From Caldifarciminota bacterium (GTDB lineage: Bacteria; Hydrothermota; Hydrothermia; Hydrothermales; JAJRUZ01), in assembly GCA_024277525.1 (NCBI GenBank), contig JAJRUZ010000022.1, forward strand, positions 1 to 63,697: a stretch of 63,697 bases of DNA, written 5' to 3'. Shown one piece after another: positions 55,630-63,697 of the stretch. Positions within the stretch are counted from its first letter, which is position 1; each line of letters opens with the position of its first letter. The position numbers and the translations under genes were made by a program. A model generated the notes under the pieces. That model was not told the DNA's origin. It made no database searches and saw only the letters and a program-made list of their open reading frames with translations.

Positions 55630-55659
55630 ATTATACTTTCTTTATCTCCTCCCTTTCAA
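55630..55659 (-). promoter_or_regulatory. Internal promoter at the end of the ABC ATPase gene
   Basis: Minus strand TTGAAA (55654-55659), 18 bases, TATAAT (55630-55635), five bases, ATG 55624. The -10 box overlaps the stop codon of the ABC ATPase gene. Confidence 0.65.
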
Positions 55660-56317
55660 CTTTTCCGTCTCTTAAATAAATAATTCTTTTTGCTCTTTTT
55701 GCTATCTCCGGGTCGTGTGTAACAACAATTATTGTCTTACCGTTTTTATTTAATTTATCAAAAATGTTCATTATTTCGTTTCCTGACTTGGTGTCAAGAT
55801 TTCCGGTAGGTTCATCTGCAAGCAAAATTTCTGCACCTGTAACAAGCGCCCTTGCTATTGCTACTCTTTGCATTTCTCCTCCCGAAAGTTCGTGAGGCTT
55901 GTGATTTGCTCTATCTTGGAGTCCTACTTCTTTTAAACATTTAAAAGCAAGTTCTCTTCTCTTATGAGAAGGAATTCCGGTGTAAATGAGAGGTAATTCC
56001 ACATTATCTATAGCTCTTATTCTCGGAATTAAATGAAAAGCCTGAAACACAAATCCTATTTCCCTGTTCCTTATTTTCGCAAGGTCATCCTCCGAATAAT
56101 TGGAAACATCCTCTCCTTTAAAGACATATCTGCCCTCTGTGGGTCTGTCAAGGAAGCCGATTATGTGAAGTAATGTACTTTTGCCCGAGCCGGAAGGACC
56201 CATTACCGCAACATATTCTCCTTTATCAATTTTTAAAGTGATTCCGTTTATTGCCTTCACAATTGTTTCACCCATTTTATAAATCCTTTTTACATTTATA
56301 AGCTCGATCAATTTCAT
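55631..56317 (-). CDS. ABC transporter ATPase, MacB/LolD type
   Basis: 228 residues. Walker A GPSGSGKST (about 37-45), Q-loop FVFQAFHLIPRI, signature LSGGEMQRVAIARAL (near 142), Walker B ILLADEPTGNLD and the switch His VVTHDPEIA. This is the stand-alone ATPase of a MacB-type exporter. The permease is a separate gene (58762-60021) in the same series, so MacB is split here. It overlaps the adaptor gene by 4 bases. Confidence 0.93.
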   Translation of the reverse strand: MKLIELINVKRIYKMGETIVKAINGITLKIDKGEYVAVMGPSGSGKSTLLHIIGFLDRPTEGRYVFKGEDVSNYSEDDLAKIRNREIGFVFQAFHLIPRIRAIDNVELPLIYTGIPSHKRRELAFKCLKEVGLQDRANHKPHELSGGEMQRVAIARALVTGAEILLADEPTGNLDTKSGNEIMNIFDKLNKNGKTIIVVTHDPEIAKRAKRIIYLRDGKVEREEIKKV

Positions 56318-57456
56318 TTCTTCTTTTTTCTTTCCTGTTTCTTCTTTATTTTTACCTTGTCCCCTTCCTTAAGTTTTTTAAGGATATCCTCCGGTCCTGT
56401 TATTACGGTGTCGTTTTCGCTCAAACCCTCTTTTATCTCTATCCTGACAAGTCCCTTAATTCCGAGTTTTACATATCTTTTTTTTGCCTTTCCTTTTTTA
56501 TAAATATATACATAAAATTTTTCTTTTTCTTCTTTCTTTTCTTTTCCTATTGCCGAATACGGCAGAGTCAAAGTATTTTCTTTTGAAGCAGTAATTATCT
56601 CACAAGAAGCACTCATCCCCGGAAGTAATAGGGAATTATTACCTTCTATTTCTATCTCAACGGGAAAAGTAGGTGTAGTTTCGATTGTTTGAGCCATACT
56701 TTGTGATTTTATTCCTCCTATCCTAACCACTTTTCCCTCAAAAACAGTATCAGGAAATGCGCCAATTTTAATTTTTACCTTTAATCCCTTTTTAATTTTC
56801 GGAATCTCGATTTCATCAACATCACATTTAACAAGCATTTTACTTCTATCCGCAATAATCATTATTTGAGAGGCAGGATTGTTTATTGTTCCCGGAATCA
56901 CTGTCTCTCCCTCTTTTTTGTAAATTTCCATTATCTCTCCGTCAATCGGAGAACTTATATAACACTTGGATAGTCTTTCTTCTGCTTCTTTTAGATTGAA
57001 ACTGTCCTGTTTTACTTTAAATAAAACCCTTTTATAGTTTGCCTCTGCCTGTTCAAATTCTTTCTGCGAGATTAATCCTTTCTCAAAAAGTGTCTTCTCT
57101 CTTTCATAGTTTTTCTTTGCGAGGGATAATTCATAGAGGTCCTGTTCAAGCATAACCTTGATTCTATCCCTCTGAGCTTTATATTCCGAAGGTTCTATTA
57201 TGCACAAAAGCTCTCCTTTTTTAACAAAGTCACCCTTTTGAAAAAATATCTTTTTTATCTTTCCTATGACCTCTGAACTTATCTCAACCTGTTTTTTTGC
57301 CATAAGTATCCCATCTACTTTAACGCTTTCGGTAATTTTGCCTTTTTTAATTACTTCAATTTCAACCCCCTTCACTTTTTTCCCTGTTTTCAAATTAAGC
57401 ATCACTATTATTATAAAAATAAGTATTCCAGCTCCTATGAAGAAAAACTTTTTCAT
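56314..57456 (-). CDS. MacA-like periplasmic adaptor (HlyD/RND-type membrane fusion protein)
   Basis: 380 residues. N-terminal anchor helix (about 4-20), a lipoyl half (SSEVIGKIKKIFFQKGDFVK), a helical hairpin (about 95-165), the second lipoyl half (ISSPIDGEIMEIYKKEGETV) and a beta-barrel/membrane-proximal part (PFPVEIEIEGNNSLLLPGMS-like region), ending in a Lys-rich tail. It links the MacB-type ATPase and permease to a TolC channel. GGAGG lies upstream of the ATG, and tolC precedes it by three bases. Confidence 0.9.
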   Translation of the reverse strand: MKKFFFIGAGILIFIIIVMLNLKTGKKVKGVEIEVIKKGKITESVKVDGILMAKKQVEISSEVIGKIKKIFFQKGDFVKKGELLCIIEPSEYKAQRDRIKVMLEQDLYELSLAKKNYEREKTLFEKGLISQKEFEQAEANYKRVLFKVKQDSFNLKEAEERLSKCYISSPIDGEIMEIYKKEGETVIPGTINNPASQIMIIADRSKMLVKCDVDEIEIPKIKKGLKVKIKIGAFPDTVFEGKVVRIGGIKSQSMAQTIETTPTFPVEIEIEGNNSLLLPGMSASCEIITASKENTLTLPYSAIGKEKKEEKEKFYVYIYKKGKAKKRYVKLGIKGLVRIEIKEGLSENDTVITGPEDILKKLKEGDKVKIKKKQERKKKK

Positions 57457-57459
57457 AAT

Positions 57460-58713
57460 TCACCTCCTGCTTTTGAATTTTAAATTCCCTGATAAATAAA
57501 GATAATAACTTATAGAAAGTTTATAATCATAAAGGGAGCTTATATAATCAACCTGAGAATTTATGTAATTTTCCTCTGCCTGCATTAATTCAAGAGATGA
57601 AATTTTACCGAGCTCAAAACTTTCTTTTGCAATTTTATAACCGAGTTCCGCACTTTTCAATTTCTCGGATGCAGCTTCAAGGGCAGATTTTTGAACCTCA
57701 ATTTCCTTTCTTGCCTTTTCAAGATTTATTTTTGAAATTAAAAAAACTTTTTTCAAATTCTCTTTTTCAATATCCAGAGAATTCTTCCCTTTCCACATAT
57801 TAAACGGATAATCCCAGAATCTTAAAGAGAATGTAAGATATAAACCCTGAGTTCTCTCGGGCTTCCTGAAGAGACTTCCGAACATTGAATCGGAATAGGA
57901 ATAATAATAGGAAAAATAAACTTCAGGCAAAAAAGAAAATATGTTGTAAAAGAAATTGAGCCTGTTTAATTTACTTGATACTTTTTCTGCTTCATATTGA
58001 TATAATGTTTTCTTCTCGGGTTCTTTAAATTCCTGAATTTCCTCCCTTATCTCCTGAGGAATAAAAATTGTATCCCCTTTTATTCCGAGAATTAATTTAA
58101 AGTCATAGAGCGCCGTGATGTAATTTTTTTCTGCTCTTTTGTAATTTAAAAGTGCATTTTCTTTCTGAACTTTTATATTTAGATAATCAAAACGTGAAAT
58201 CAAACCCTCTTTATATTTTTCCTCTGCAAGTTTGAAATTTTCTTCTGCCCTTTCCAGACTTTTCTTCATAACATCGAAGACTTTTTTTGCTTTCAAAACA
58301 TTAAAATAGAAGCTTTCCACATTATATACAAATTTCATTTCATAATTTATAAGTTCAAGTTTGTATTTTTCTTTTGAATAATAATTACTCAAAATATTTG
58401 TAAGACCCGAGGGTGAAAATATTTTTTGATTTATTGAAAAGGTGAAAGTATAGCCTCTTTTAGATGAGGTGTAGATGGGAGAGGGAACCCCCGGTAAGAA
58501 AGCGGGTGTCTTTGTTTCCGTGTTTGTATAACTTCCCTCAGCCCTGAGAGAAGGAAGATAACCGAAGACAGAATTTAAAAAATCAATTTTTCTTACTGTG
58601 TTCTGTTTATACTGAATCTGCATATCAGGATTATTTTTAAAAGCAATCAAAAGGGCTTTGTTTAAATCAACTTTTACTGTATCAATTGATATAAGAAAGA
58701 TAATAAAAAGCAT
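57460..58713 (-). CDS. TolC-family outer membrane efflux protein
   Basis: 417 residues. Signal peptide (about 1-12), then two outer-membrane-efflux repeats: LNKALLIAFKNNPDMQIQYK (near 16) and the second with long helices (YKEGLISRFDYLNIKVQKEN, and FELGKISSLELMQAEENYIN near the end). It forms the trimeric exit duct of the MacA/MacB pump. AGGGAGG lies upstream of the ATG, with the dispersed GCGG repeat (copy C) directly before it. Confidence 0.9.
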   Translation of the reverse strand: MLFIIFLISIDTVKVDLNKALLIAFKNNPDMQIQYKQNTVRKIDFLNSVFGYLPSLRAEGSYTNTETKTPAFLPGVPSPIYTSSKRGYTFTFSINQKIFSPSGLTNILSNYYSKEKYKLELINYEMKFVYNVESFYFNVLKAKKVFDVMKKSLERAEENFKLAEEKYKEGLISRFDYLNIKVQKENALLNYKRAEKNYITALYDFKLILGIKGDTIFIPQEIREEIQEFKEPEKKTLYQYEAEKVSSKLNRLNFFYNIFSFLPEVYFSYYYSYSDSMFGSLFRKPERTQGLYLTFSLRFWDYPFNMWKGKNSLDIEKENLKKVFLISKINLEKARKEIEVQKSALEAASEKLKSAELGYKIAKESFELGKISSLELMQAEENYINSQVDYISSLYDYKLSISYYLYLSGNLKFKSRR

Positions 58714-58728
58714 AAAACACCTCCCTTT

Positions 58729-58758
58729 GTAGGAGCGGTTTCCAAACCGCGAGTTGTA
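58729..58758. repeat. Dispersed GCGG repeat, copy C
   Basis: TGTAGGA-GCGGTTT-CC-AAACCGC-GAGTTGTA, a perfect 7-bp inverted repeat core. It lies inside the exporter operon between the permease and tolC genes, right before the tolC ribosome site. Confidence 0.75.
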
Positions 58759-58761
58759 GAT

Positions 58762-60021
58762 TTATTCATATCTCAGACATTCAATCGGGTCCTTCTTTGC
58801 TGCGAGTGTTGCAGGGTATATTCCGAAGAATATTCCTATGACAGAAGAGAAAACAATGGCAAGAAGAACACTCCACAAGGGAATATGTGATGGGAGGGGT
58901 GTAAGTATATCAACAAGTTTTCCGATTATAACGCCTAAGAGAAAGCCCAGAACTCCCCCGACTCCTGTCAGGAAAATTGATTCAAGTAAGAACTGATATA
59001 AAATATCCCTCCTCTTTGCTCCTACAGCCATTCTTATTCCTATTTCCTTTGTCCTTTCAGAGACAGAAACTAGCATAATGTTCATAATTCCTATACCCCC
59101 GACTATTAAAGCAAGCGAGGCAATACCTATCATGGCAGCAAAAATGGCGCCCGTTATCGATTTATACATGGAGATAATCATTTCCGAAGTATTAAGGAAA
59201 AAATTATCTTCATCGGTAAAAAACAACTGTCTCCTTTTTCTTAAAAATTTTCGTAATTTTTCCATCGCATTTTCAATTGTTATCCCTTTTTTAATTTTTA
59301 CGACCAGTGTCGGAGACAAAAAAACTTTTTGCCATTCCATCTTTGGTTTCCCTGAAATCAAATTGCCTGTTGAAAAAGGAATCATTATGATATTATCCAG
59401 ATTATTTCCCAAGATTTTACCTTTTTCTTTAAGTTCTCCTATGACAATAAAATTTTTGTCTTCAATTCTAATTTCCTTCCCGATAGGGTTCTCTCCTTCA
59501 AATACATTTTCGGAAATGTATTTTCCTATGATACAAACCCTTCTCCTGAAAAATTCGTCCTCTTCATCCAATCTCCTTCCTTTATCAACCTGATAACCCA
59601 TTATATCGAAATATTCGGGAGAAACCGCAATAACATTAACATTATTAAGGGATTTATCCCTGTATTTTATTTTTTCAAAATTAAAAAGTTTTTTATAAAT
59701 TGCTACACCTTTTACATACTCAAGATTTTTTATTGCCTCTGCGTCTTTTTCTGTAAAATCTGGATAATTCTTATACTTTTTCCACCATCCTCTTGTGCTT
59801 CCTGTGCTAAAAACCAGCCATTTATATTTCTGCACATAAATAACATCGGTTCCTATACTTCCAAAAACCTTATAAACATAGTTATTAATTCCTTCAATAA
59901 TTGACATCATTGAAATGACCGTTCCCACACCTATAATAATTCCGAGTGTCGTGAGAACGGATCTCAATTTGTGAGATTTTATTCCGTAAAAGGAAATTCT
60001 TATTAAATCAAAAATTTTCAT
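58762..60021 (-). CDS. MacB-type ABC transporter permease
   Basis: 419 residues. Helix about 20-40 after KSHKLRSVLTTLGIIIGVGT, a large periplasmic MacB core domain (about 45-270), then three C-terminal helices of the FtsX fold with GGIGIMNIMLVSVSERTKEI and GIRMAVGAKRRDILYQFLLE. The protein ends GIYPATLAAKKDPIECLRYE. It is the membrane half of a mechanotransmission exporter. The ATPase half is a separate gene three genes downstream. A TATAAT ends five bases before the ATG, and a second, palindrome-bearing promoter lies further up (60103-60132). Confidence 0.92.
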   Translation of the reverse strand: MKIFDLIRISFYGIKSHKLRSVLTTLGIIIGVGTVISMMSIIEGINNYVYKVFGSIGTDVIYVQKYKWLVFSTGSTRGWWKKYKNYPDFTEKDAEAIKNLEYVKGVAIYKKLFNFEKIKYRDKSLNNVNVIAVSPEYFDIMGYQVDKGRRLDEEDEFFRRRVCIIGKYISENVFEGENPIGKEIRIEDKNFIVIGELKEKGKILGNNLDNIIMIPFSTGNLISGKPKMEWQKVFLSPTLVVKIKKGITIENAMEKLRKFLRKRRQLFFTDEDNFFLNTSEMIISMYKSITGAIFAAMIGIASLALIVGGIGIMNIMLVSVSERTKEIGIRMAVGAKRRDILYQFLLESIFLTGVGGVLGFLLGVIIGKLVDILTPLPSHIPLWSVLLAIVFSSVIGIFFGIYPATLAAKKDPIECLRYE

Positions 60022-60188: not shown

Positions 60189-62018
60189 CTAAAACCTGTA
60201 AAGTTTAATCTTTTTCTCTTTTTTAAATAATGGCAAAAATACTCCCCTGATTTTTTCTCCGGGACCGACCTTTATCTCTATTCCCTTTTCTAAATATATA
60301 TACTCAAAAGGAGCATTTATTATTTTGAGAAAATATGTTCCGGGTCTAAGCGCGGTAAAGTAAAATCTACCTTCCTCATCCGTTATTGTTGAATAGCCAT
60401 TTAAACTGACAATTATATTGGGAATCCCTTTTTCATTTTCATCTTTAATACCGTTTCTGTTTTTGTCCACAAACACATAACCCGAGAGTTCCCCGAGCTC
60501 CTGAATCGGAATAATAAATATTTTCTTCCCGAATAAACCTGTCTCAAACTCAAACTTCTCCCCTTTTGCACTTCCGAGTTCGGCAGGAAGCGCACCGTAT
60601 CTTATCTCAATACGATGTTTCCCCGGTTTCAAAAATTTAAAAGAAAACCTCCCCTTTTTGTCAGTTTTTACTTTTTTTTCATTATCCAATATAACCTCCA
60701 TACCTTCCATAAATCTGTCGCCCTCATCAAGTGTAAAGTTTTTATTTTTATCATAATAAATTACACCTTCACATATTGAAAACCCTATCTCTTTGGGTTT
60801 TAAAGCAGTGGATAAAGAAAAGCTTAAATTATGATAATTCTTTTTTGAAAAGTTTGACAAAAAATAAGATAAACCAAGACTTAAAAGACTGAATTTTGAA
60901 TAAATTGAAATCCCCAAAAATCTCTTATAGATATTCTTTAATTCCTCTCCGAAATAGAACCCCGTTCTTATGATACTGTTCTTTATATACCTTATTTCAT
61001 ATTTTGCTGTCCTTCCATCAGAATAAATTAAATATGCATTAAAAAGAAAAGGATAAATATTTATTCTAAGATTAAAATTGTTACTTTCAAACATTGATTT
61101 TAAATGAGTAAATCTTATATTAAAAATCTTTTTGTCGTAAACAATTTCAAAACTTCTTTTAAAAATCATTTCATAATTTATGAAATTTATACCCCCTGAA
61201 AAGGAAATTATAGGAAACTTCGGAATAAAAAAAGTGGACCTCGTATTTACTCGGAATATCCTTCCTGAATAGTTCTGCGAAAAATTAATCGAGTACGCGG
61301 TAGCATATGAAAATTTTTTCAGATTAAACTTATAAAATCCCCGGGTTCCGAAATTAAGGGAAAATTTTTGTTTTCTTAAACTTAAATTACAAAAATTAGG
61401 AGTGTTAATTCTCAACCTGAAATTTATTCCTTTTTCCTCTTTTATAAATTCACCGTAAATTTCATCTGCCAATCCGAAACCCGATTCAAAAACAGAAAAT
61501 GCAAATTTATTTTCCACACTCAAGTATGCACCCGAATATCTTGAATATAAAGAATTTAAAAACCAAGGGGACATTTTTTTATTTTTTTTGATAACCAAAT
61601 CATAGTTGATATTTAAATTCGTTGATTTGCTGTAATTGTATTCAAATAGGGAAAAAAAATCGTTTCTCTTAAAAGATGGCACATACCCGCTGTATTCTCT
61701 TTCCTTTCCGAACTGGAAAATAAAATTACTCCCCTGAATTTTGACTCCCCGCAGATAGACAGAAATTCCGAAAGGAATATCTAAGTAAAAATAATTATCA
61801 CCCACAGATACCGAATATGACTTAAAGGGAAATGCATAATTAAAATGATATAAAGAAAATGTTCTATCAAATTTTGATATTTTTAGAGAATAAGAGTAAT
61901 TTTCATTTGAATAAAAGTTTGAAAAATAGTAGGTACTTTTTTTATTTCCCGGATAAAAATAATTGTTTCCGTATATTGAAAAAGTAAAAGAATAGGAAAT
62001 AATAAGAAATATAATCAT
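60189..62018 (-). CDS. Usher-like outer membrane barrel with two SdrD/CarboxypepD-reg-like domains
   Basis: 609 residues. A signal peptide (about 1-18) precedes a long aromatic-rich beta region (about 20-410). Two Ig-like regulatory domains of SdrD_B/carboxypeptidase-regulatory type follow: YYDKNKNFTLDEGDRFMEG to GRFSFKFLKPGKHRI (about 425-485) and VFVDKNRNGIKDENEKGIPN to GRFYFTALRPGTYFLKI (about 520-580). The last part is a short basic tail. The genes directly upstream encode a pilus-chaperone-like protein and two secreted subunit-like proteins, so an usher or assembly barrel is inferred. It is smaller than classical ushers (about 800) and no plug domain is evident. Confidence 0.6.
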   Translation of the reverse strand: MIIFLIISYSFTFSIYGNNYFYPGNKKSTYYFSNFYSNENYSYSLKISKFDRTFSLYHFNYAFPFKSYSVSVGDNYFYLDIPFGISVYLRGVKIQGSNFIFQFGKEREYSGYVPSFKRNDFFSLFEYNYSKSTNLNINYDLVIKKNKKMSPWFLNSLYSRYSGAYLSVENKFAFSVFESGFGLADEIYGEFIKEEKGINFRLRINTPNFCNLSLRKQKFSLNFGTRGFYKFNLKKFSYATAYSINFSQNYSGRIFRVNTRSTFFIPKFPIISFSGGINFINYEMIFKRSFEIVYDKKIFNIRFTHLKSMFESNNFNLRINIYPFLFNAYLIYSDGRTAKYEIRYIKNSIIRTGFYFGEELKNIYKRFLGISIYSKFSLLSLGLSYFLSNFSKKNYHNLSFSLSTALKPKEIGFSICEGVIYYDKNKNFTLDEGDRFMEGMEVILDNEKKVKTDKKGRFSFKFLKPGKHRIEIRYGALPAELGSAKGEKFEFETGLFGKKIFIIPIQELGELSGYVFVDKNRNGIKDENEKGIPNIIVSLNGYSTITDEEGRFYFTALRPGTYFLKIINAPFEYIYLEKGIEIKVGPGEKIRGVFLPLFKKEKKIKLYRF

Positions 62019-62749
62019 TTTATTTCTATAATTTTTTCTCCTTTTAAAATTTCTTCTGTTCCGTAATCAATCTCACAGATTAGTTTATATTTCCCCTTTT
62101 TTATATTGTTACCTATTTTAAATTTGTACCTTCTTTTCTGAAACGGCAGTATGACAAAATTGAGAAAGGGTTTTTCCCATATAATTTTGCCTTTTTCTTC
62201 AATATATACCTTACCTTTTGTTCTTATGTGAACAGGAGATAAGTTATACACAACAAAATATGGCTCATTGCTTTTAAATCCCATATCTAAAAGTTCAGCA
62301 GATTTTACATTTCCCTGGGGTAAAATTGCATAGATAGGAACCCCTATTTCTCTTACAATTCTTATTTGCGGTACCCTCTCCAATCTCGGGTATCCCCTGA
62401 ATATTATCATACACCATTTTTCGAGTGTTCTCATCGTATCGGGTAATGTAAAGCTCACCCTTACTTCCTTTTTTTCATTTGCTTCTAAATCAAACGCCCT
62501 GGGTGAAATCTTTACAAAATTCTTTAATGAGTATCCTTTCAATTTTTTCTTAAATTCTGCTTCCCCTTTTTCATTTATAATAAAATCTTCTGCATAAACT
62601 TCAATATGTGAAGGTGCTTCCCTTGATTCAACCATAAAAACTTCGGTATATACTTTTCCTTTTAAATAAAATTTCTCAACCCTGGCAGGCTCAACAAAAA
62701 TCCTGGGAGATTGAGAAACCGTTAAAATTATAAGTAATTTACTTAACAT
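62015..62749 (-). CDS. Periplasmic pilus-chaperone-like (PapD-fold) protein
   Basis: 244 residues. Signal peptide (about 1-13), then two Ig-like beta domains. The first resembles the PapD/archaic chaperone N-domain, with the G1-strand region VKISPRAFDLEANEKKEVRV (about 84-103) and EKWCMIIFRGYPR. The second domain runs about 145-240. Chaperones of this fold hold surface subunits for usher-driven assembly. The evidence is fold pattern and position; sequence identity to known chaperones looks low. It overlaps the usher-like gene by 4 bases and the upstream secreted gene by 11. Confidence 0.6.
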   Translation of the reverse strand: MLSKLLIILTVSQSPRIFVEPARVEKFYLKGKVYTEVFMVESREAPSHIEVYAEDFIINEKGEAEFKKKLKGYSLKNFVKISPRAFDLEANEKKEVRVSFTLPDTMRTLEKWCMIIFRGYPRLERVPQIRIVREIGVPIYAILPQGNVKSAELLDMGFKSNEPYFVVYNLSPVHIRTKGKVYIEEKGKIIWEKPFLNFVILPFQKRRYKFKIGNNIKKGKYKLICEIDYGTEEILKGEKIIEIK

Positions 62750-63200
62750 TTATCCTGAAAGAAATGTTTAAATTTATAGGCTCAATATCATAAATGTTAT
62801 CATCCTGTTCAACTTTTAAAATAATTGTAAAAGGTACAACTATTTCACCTTTTTCTTTATCAATTTTGAACCTGGCAAGATATACATATTTATCAGACAA
62901 AGGAGTAAAACCTTCGGGCGGTTTACCTTCAATATATTTCTTATTTATTGAAACCAAAAACTGATTAAACTCAATTCCGTAAGGAAGATTTCCTTTGCCT
63001 TTTATATATATCTCTATAAATTTTATATTTTCATCCTTTGCTTTTTCATATTCAATTTTTAAAAAATGATTACTTTTATATGCGGTGGTGTAATAGCAAG
63101 GAAAAGTGGAAGGAGGATAATAAGGGCTGTTTCTCAAATCAAACACAATAGGGGGACTCAGATCAAGAGAAATTATAAAAGAAATAATAAATAGAAGCAT
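62739..63200 (-). CDS. Secreted beta-rich protein, possible minor surface subunit
   Basis: 153 residues. A short hydrophobic signal (about 1-12) is followed by an all-beta domain ending PINLNISFRINVK. That terminal alternating strand resembles the end of the next protein upstream (TLTFRLYAQ), as in subunits that donate or accept strands. No family recognised. It follows the partial subunit gene after a gap containing the leader hairpin, and it overlaps the chaperone-like gene by 11 bases. Confidence 0.55.
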   Translation of the reverse strand: MLLFIISFIISLDLSPPIVFDLRNSPYYPPSTFPCYYTTAYKSNHFLKIEYEKAKDENIKFIEIYIKGKGNLPYGIEFNQFLVSINKKYIEGKPPEGFTPLSDKYVYLARFKIDKEKGEIVVPFTIILKVEQDDNIYDIEPINLNISFRINVK

Positions 63201-63223
63201 TTTCCCCCGAAAATGAAGGGGGT

Positions 63224-63238
63224 AGGGAATTGAACCCT
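63224..63238 (-). promoter_or_regulatory. Leader hairpin motif, surface-cluster copy
   Basis: Minus strand AGGG-TTCAATT-CCCT, identical to the Spy-gene copy. It lies between the partial subunit gene (stop at 63250-63252) and the 153-residue gene (ATG 63200). A CCCCC/GGGGG hairpin follows it at about 63203-63222. Confidence 0.6.
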
Positions 63239-63249
63239 ATAAAATTTTT

Positions 63250-63697
63250 TTATTGAGCATATAATCTGAAAGTAAGGGTAATGGTTGAGGTAGTGGGTTC
63301 ATCATCGGGTTCTGCCTGGAAGACGAAGTCTTTGCTGTAATCAGCCCAGCCGGTGGTAAAACCTCCTGAGTCCAAATTGATGGAAGTTGTAGAAAGTGAA
63401 GTCCAGGGAGCAGGGGGCGGATCCGTTCCCTCTGCGGGTGCAGCAGTGCCGTCAGGAGCAATATAAAGCTGGTCAATGAGTACCGTGGTTGAGAAATCTC
63501 CGCTTCCGAATACATCAAGATACCATGTTAAAGTTGTAGAGTTTGAGAATATCTCTACCACCACACCTTCCGCATTCGTTGCACTTGCAGAAGTAGGGTA
63601 ATAGTATCCGGGAAATACATCAGGAGGGTATGCAAGTGAAGGGCCAACAGGTGAATTGAGGTCAAAAGTTAAATCAGCGTCAACATAAAGACCAATT
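63250..63697 (-). CDS. Secreted beta-rich surface subunit-like protein (5' end outside window)
   Basis: The frame enters from the right edge, so 148 residues plus the stop are visible and the start is missing. The translation begins IGLYVDADLTFDL and ends STITLTFRLYAQ. It is all-beta, rich in Ser, Thr, Asp, Pro and Gly and poor in Lys, unlike its neighbours, and its DNA is visibly more G+C-rich (a segment encoding PPPAPW, for example). These traits suggest an abundant, exported structural subunit. It is first in the visible chaperone/usher-like cluster, which fits a main pilin-like component (inference). Confidence 0.6.
   Translation of the reverse strand, partial: IGLYVDADLTFDLNSPVGPSLAYPPDVFPGYYYPTSASATNAEGVVVEIFSNSTTLTWYLDVFGSGDFSTTVLIDQLYIAPDGTAAPAEGTDPPPAPWTSLSTTSINLDSGGFTTGWADYSKDFVFQAEPDDEPTTSTITLTFRLYAQ

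Follow-up and report, generated by a model that had tools for sequence, protein, structure and literature searches.

What do four adjoining genes at the right end of a contig from a Caldifarciminota bacterium of candidate division WOR-3 encode: a chaperone–usher (CU) system for surface fibres, or something that merely resembles one? The contig, JAJRUZ010000022.1 of assembly GCA_024277525.1, is 63,697 nucleotides long. It makes up the whole of the stretch we analysed (the window) and is one of 102 contigs of a 2.34-Mb genome. Our answer is that the genes probably form a divergent CU fibre-assembly system, built around a reduced, minimal usher. The original prediction, made from the letters of the window, had described four adjacent or overlapping minus-strand genes in the order familiar from CU pili. 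All four open reading frames (ORFs) are indeed there, and relatives keep their order. The features to which we refer are as follows.

63250..63696, minus strand: subunit 1, putative major fibre subunit, last 148 residues; ORF open at the contig end
62739..63200, minus strand: subunit 2, putative tip or cap subunit, 153 residues; of subunit 1's family, lacking the N-terminal extension (subunit profile, E = 6.4e-6)
62015..62749, minus strand: two-domain PapD-superfamily chaperone, 244 residues, assigned by hhalign against CU chaperones
62501..62503, minus strand: codon of Pro83, counterpart of the proline invariant in the CU superfamily (EcpB Pro60)
62327..62371, minus strand: chaperone residues 127–141, predicted G1-type donor strand, with Ile129, Ile131, Ile135, Val137 and Ile139 alternating
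62222..62224, minus strand: codon of Arg176, counterpart of the carboxylate-anchoring EcpB Arg148 and CsuC Arg174
60189..62018, minus strand: usher-like outer-membrane protein, 609 residues (Pfam and profile comparison)
60783..62018, minus strand: its signal peptide and beta-barrel region, residues 1–412, in which neither N-terminal domain (NTD) nor plug was found (model and profiles)
60495..60782, minus strand: its first SdrD-type domain, residues 413–508, putative equivalent of the first usher C-terminal domain (CTD1; Pfam and profile comparison)
60192..60494, minus strand: its second SdrD-type domain, residues 509–609, putative CTD2 equivalent with a C-terminal K/R-x-F tail (Pfam and profile comparison)

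A conserved gene cluster

Neighbouring genes share 4 nucleotides (chaperone and barrel) and 11 (subunit 2 and chaperone), as in a translationally coupled operon. Because the window is the entire contig, the gene for subunit 1 is truncated, its signal peptide and donor extension cut off; a search of its own genome with the subunit profile recovered neither a further copy nor the missing N terminus.

The chaperone was present in 12 of the 60 genomes first searched, the window's own included. Across 147 WOR-3 genomes its profile found matches in 41, of which 30 were strong, and full or partial copies of the barrel protein (more than a lone SdrD match) turned up in 29 genomes, every one of them among those 30. 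Named relatives put the window's genome together with Candidatus Hydrothermus pacificus JdFR-72 and other candidate division WOR-3 genomes. We read the gene neighbourhoods of 29 single-chaperone loci, 28 from WOR-3 relatives plus the window. The chaperone is followed directly by the barrel gene in 24 of them, usually with one to three subunit genes alongside. Of the other five, two lie at contig ends, one has a subunit gene separating chaperone from barrel, one is a second copy that lacks the barrel, and one is divergent (L078). That genomes holding the chaperone share this gene order tells us that the cluster is not a product of chance, and since the flanking genes vary between families it is a self-standing unit.

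The chaperone

Comparison of hidden Markov models bore out the earlier reading of the protein at 62015 to 62749 as a PapD-like, two-domain chaperone. The WOR-3 profile aligned with that of 10 archaic CU chaperones (from a plasmid-borne Acinetobacter locus and nine further loci of like kind) over 228 columns spanning both domains, with an hhalign E value of 6.7e-21; as a control, the classical and archaic profiles matched each other at 4.6e-15. Matches to the classical chaperones (1.1e-4) and to EcpB/EcpE of the alternative pathway (1.3e-5) were weaker. A tblastn search of plasmids with a relative's chaperone found an Acinetobacter chaperone at E = 8e-5, adjoining a true usher (PF00577, 1e-29). 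By these comparisons the protein is a member of the CU/PapD superfamily, its fold being argued from profiles.

The original prediction had also judged sequence similarity to classical systems to be weak. That holds for the barrel and for searches with one sequence at a time: Pfam, NCBIfam and PDB searches with the window's chaperone and subunits as single sequences gave no match, as did a contig scan with the chaperone sequence alone, and a wide chaperone alignment had no conserved stretch; a narrower set of closer relatives returned four named loci. It does not hold for the chaperone profile, whose similarity to CU chaperones is strong. PapD_N reached 1.4e-5 at best across the family, passing its curated cut-off in one genome, and a larger chaperone profile brought up EcpB and FaeE from the PDB near E = 0.9.

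Functional residues point the same way. EcpB Pro60 is the only proline invariant in the superfamily, and Arg148 of EcpB, like Arg174 of CsuC, anchors the subunit carboxylate (PMC4654587). Their aligned counterparts are Pro83, kept in all 28 chaperones of our alignment, and Arg176, which is arginine in 20 of the 28 and lysine in two. The Arg89-type carboxylate anchor of non-classical chaperones is arginine in none of the 28 (the column holds Met or Val), and no equivalent of the Tyr196 anchor is conserved in that alignment. An N-terminal Lys/Arg at position 23, considered as the equivalent of PapD Arg8, was dropped, the alignment placing the FimC arginine near Glu25. The putative donor strand alternates hydrophobic and polar residues from 129 to 139, with one exception at 133: mean Kyte–Doolittle values are 3.3–4.4 at positions 129, 131, 135, 137 and 139 and average -0.8 at the even positions. 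This strand aligns with the 'xSVPxF' motif of archaic chaperones. In an unrooted LG+C20 tree with several long branches, a branch supported at 100/96 sets all the WOR-3 chaperones apart from every archaic, alternative and classical sequence sampled.

The usher-like protein

An usher consists of an NTD, a 24-stranded barrel holding a plug, and the domains CTD1 and CTD2; FimD and PapC use the NTD to recruit chaperone–subunit complexes and the plug to gate the pore (PMC8410936). Pfam finds two SdrD_B domains at the C terminus of the WOR-3 barrel protein (2.7e-19); the other three proteins of the window have no convincing Pfam match. The original prediction had found these two immunoglobulin (Ig)-like domains and regarded them as extras. 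The domains are there; their standing as additions did not survive profile comparison, in which the C-terminal region of the barrel protein matched archaic ushers at E = 4.3e-7, in register with CTD1 and CTD2. The alignment starts near the last barrel strands, spans both domains and carries a common 'TD..G ... ID ... (L/I)P' pattern. Controls fell well short: a generic WOR-3 SdrD profile gave 0.058 and column-shuffled profiles 0.38–0.72. Over the CTD pair the alignment covers 122–143 columns and scores 47–68, against 22 for generic SdrD and 13–16 for shuffled profiles. Having seen this alignment we no longer read the SdrD domains as an appended adhesin module. On profile evidence they are equivalents of CTD1 and CTD2, and the true departures from an usher are the absent NTD and plug.

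That the barrel is short and plugless, as first predicted, is borne out by length. A median of 436 residues precedes the CTD1 core in the WOR-3 proteins, compared with 630 in archaic ushers. The roughly 195 residues by which they fall short are about the combined size of the NTD and plug of FimD, which leaves no apparent room for either. Judged by sequence, membership of the usher family is partial, taking in the CTDs and leaving out the barrel sequence, the NTD and the plug.

A separate observation concerns the protein's tail, which follows the second C-terminal domain (60192–60212 in the window): it is rich in Lys and Arg, and in 21 of 23 homologues phenylalanine is the last residue or the last but one.

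The subunits

The window's fragment of subunit 1 is 65% identical to a complete, 203-residue subunit of Ca. Hydrothermus pacificus, and the two subunit families are related to each other (hhalign 1.1e-13). In 11 loci subunit 1 has a conserved extension of about 30 residues before its first core strand, of the type GGPGDRxxGFAPGDTLxDTLxVTV (shorter in L025 and L027), and subunit 2 has none. As in CU pili, whose shaft and tip subunits differ in this way, the extension looks like a donor strand and the subunit that lacks it like a tip. The AlphaFold2 model of the complete subunit 1 homologue has a predicted local distance difference test score (pLDDT) of 81 and leaves residues ~30–55 unpaired. 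Foldseek matched it to CfaB, PapA, CsuA/B (from the CsuC complex), the FimH pilin domain and FimG, at E values of about 0.006–0.1.

Weighing the alternatives

Several observations count against a CU system. Integrin domains and carbohydrate-binding modules are interspersed among the subunit fold matches, all of which lie at 0.006–0.1. Pfam assigns the subunits to no family and finds no SCPU (PF05229) match; profile comparison with SCPU shows weak similarity, with E values of 2.7e-4 (60 columns) and 0.005, and the subunit profiles have no similarity to E. coli pilins. The usher family PF00577 occurs in none of the 147 WOR-3 genomes. Taken alone, the barrel region has no profile similarity to ushers (E = 0.04), whereas classical and archaic ushers find each other at 1.9e-55; no usher NTD or plug profile matches, and the barrel starts straight after the signal peptide. 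Individual generic SdrD domains also match the usher CTD region, at 0.003 at best, and so the specificity of the CTD match is modest. With five sequences as input, AlphaFold2 gave a poor model of the barrel (mean pLDDT 52), with 13 consecutive strands in residues 222–404 and the rest not resolved. FimD and PapC are the model's best outer-membrane matches in Foldseek (9e-9 to 6e-7, compared with 1e-3 for LptD), yet with such a model and template-modelling scores of 0.2–0.3 this is a hint only. Counting amphipathic strands barely distinguished the barrel from shuffled sequences. The first isolate of the phylum, sy37, is diderm and shows pili in negative-stain electron microscopy (PMC12285271); we count these pili as support, on the supposition that sy37 carries the cluster.

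Might a genuine CU-type chaperone have had its usher replaced by an unrelated outer-membrane protein, the likeness of the CTDs being a generic similarity of transthyretin-like folds? The profile-level strangeness of the barrel, the weak matches of generic SdrD domains and the names Pfam gives the C-terminal domains (SdrD_B and CarboxypepD_reg) would all fit. We consider this unlikely: the two domains align as a pair, in register and well above the controls, ushers are the barrel model's best outer-membrane fold matches, and the protein has the size of an usher minus NTD and plug.

A quite improbable second possibility is that the cluster is a Gram-negative relative of WxL/WxLIP, in which a two-Ig protein stabilizes small surface proteins and no fibre passes through a pore. 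The attraction lies in the chaperone. WxLIP_PGBD matches seven of the 28 members (best 2.3e-7), above its curated cut-off in two genomes, and the closest PDB sequence to the first chaperone profile was EfmWxLIP1, at E = 6e-4; moreover, AlphaFold2 predicts that WxLIP inserts a strand into WxL (PMC10599100). The similarity to archaic CU chaperones is nevertheless far stronger, and 29 of the 30 strong genomes have the barrel partner. The host is diderm, Pfam searches of the cluster proteins found no WxL domain, and the chaperones end at domain 2, with no C-terminal transmembrane helix. Thermotoga maritima, included as a control genome, also passes the cut-off for WxLIP_PGBD; if this outer-sheathed thermophile has an Ig protein of WxLIP type, that would bear on the WxLIP link.

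That the genes are an unrelated porin or adhesin operon with a fortuitous CU likeness, to which the family-less subunits and low-confidence barrel model might lend some colour, is scarcely credible, since the chaperone profile match already makes it unlikely and the functional residues and a gene order kept in many families of the phylum tell against it too.

How a fibre might be assembled

Under the reading we prefer, a divergent CU system with a minimal usher, the subunits would reach the periplasm by means of their signal peptides. There the two-domain chaperone would lend its G1 strand to each incomplete Ig-like subunit, and the resulting complexes would dock on the barrel protein through its C-terminal domains. 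At the periplasmic face of the barrel, whose size and strand number we infer, the next subunit 1 to arrive would displace the chaperone's strand with its N-terminal extension, and the chained subunits would be threaded through to the cell surface. Subunit 2, having no extension, would exit first and form the tip. Since such an usher has neither NTD nor plug, recruitment and hand-over would have to be handled by the CTDs, and gating by the CTDs or by loops of the barrel.

If so, this natural usher-like protein would reveal a minimal assembly platform, and the need for NTD and plug would become directly testable. CU assembly would also reach into WOR-3, a phylum in which searches with standard family models turn up no usher, and the cluster would be a candidate source of the uncharacterised pili of its first isolate. 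A bolder version, which we hold only tentatively and think somewhat less probable than not, makes the cluster a deep fourth CU branch, its usher capturing, handing over and gating through CTDs, and its chaperone sharing ancestry with the Gram-positive WxL-interacting protein. Strand-lending surface assembly would then predate the divergence of bacteria with one membrane from those with two.

Variants and neighbouring genes

Two variant loci stand out. In L078:1663-7392 the genes that come after two subunits and a chaperone encode proteins of 662 (DUF11, CarboxypepD_reg) and 587 residues in place of the usual barrel; L070:2-4769 has enlarged subunits (269 and 280 residues, one lying between chaperone and barrel) and a 760-residue barrel protein.

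Some genomes encode two chaperone copies in tandem within a single ORF of ~515–530 residues (L074:261-1805, L075:5984-7558, L076:5494-7047 and L077:5065-6654), the copies matching the chaperone family at 8e-32 and 1e-27 by hhalign. Similar ORFs occur in four further genomes (G041, G109, G111 and G115). In all four loci read, the gene that follows the double-chaperone ORF encodes a secretin (PF00263, E 1e-40 to 1e-46), and the two may form a 'double chaperone–secretin' cassette.

Judging by their ORFs, the genes directly downstream of the window's cluster, on the same strand at 55631–60021, form a MacA/MacB/TolC-like export set, which was not seen adjoining the cluster in relatives.

Comparison with known systems

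Closest are the archaic (sigma, Csu-type) CU systems, with which the WOR-3 cluster shares the order subunit–chaperone–usher, the chaperone profile, an xVPxF/Y at the end of the G1 strand, the CsuC Arg174 equivalent in 20 of 28 chaperones and the in-register CTD1 and CTD2. We do not class it as archaic because an Arg89 equivalent is absent (0/28), SCPU finds no match and the tree does not place the WOR-3 chaperones among the archaic ones sampled. Other differences are the lack of a conserved Tyr196 equivalent and of the usher NTD and plug, and, in most loci, of a tip gene after the usher. The suggestion in the original prediction of a divergent branch of the archaic system therefore needs trimming: a divergent CU branch is supported, its placement within the archaic group is not.

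With the alternative (alpha, ECP/CFA-I) pathway the likenesses are the chaperone match to EcpB/EcpE, an NxGNxxLR motif in common, and CfaB as best pilin fold match of the subunit model; the WOR-3 system differs in having no Arg89 anchor, a reduced usher and subunits without a sequence match. The classical (Fim/Pap) systems likewise have a two-domain chaperone, a tip subunit with no donor extension and a barrel followed by two C-terminal domains. They differ in that the lysine of FimC's IKLFWRP aligns with Gly136 of the WOR-3 chaperone, and that the WOR-3 barrel has neither usher sequence similarity nor NTD and plug. From the WxL/WxLIP system of Gram-positives the WOR-3 cluster differs in having an outer-membrane barrel and neither WxL domain nor membrane anchor; what the two share is a two-Ig partner protein with WxLIP_PGBD similarity.

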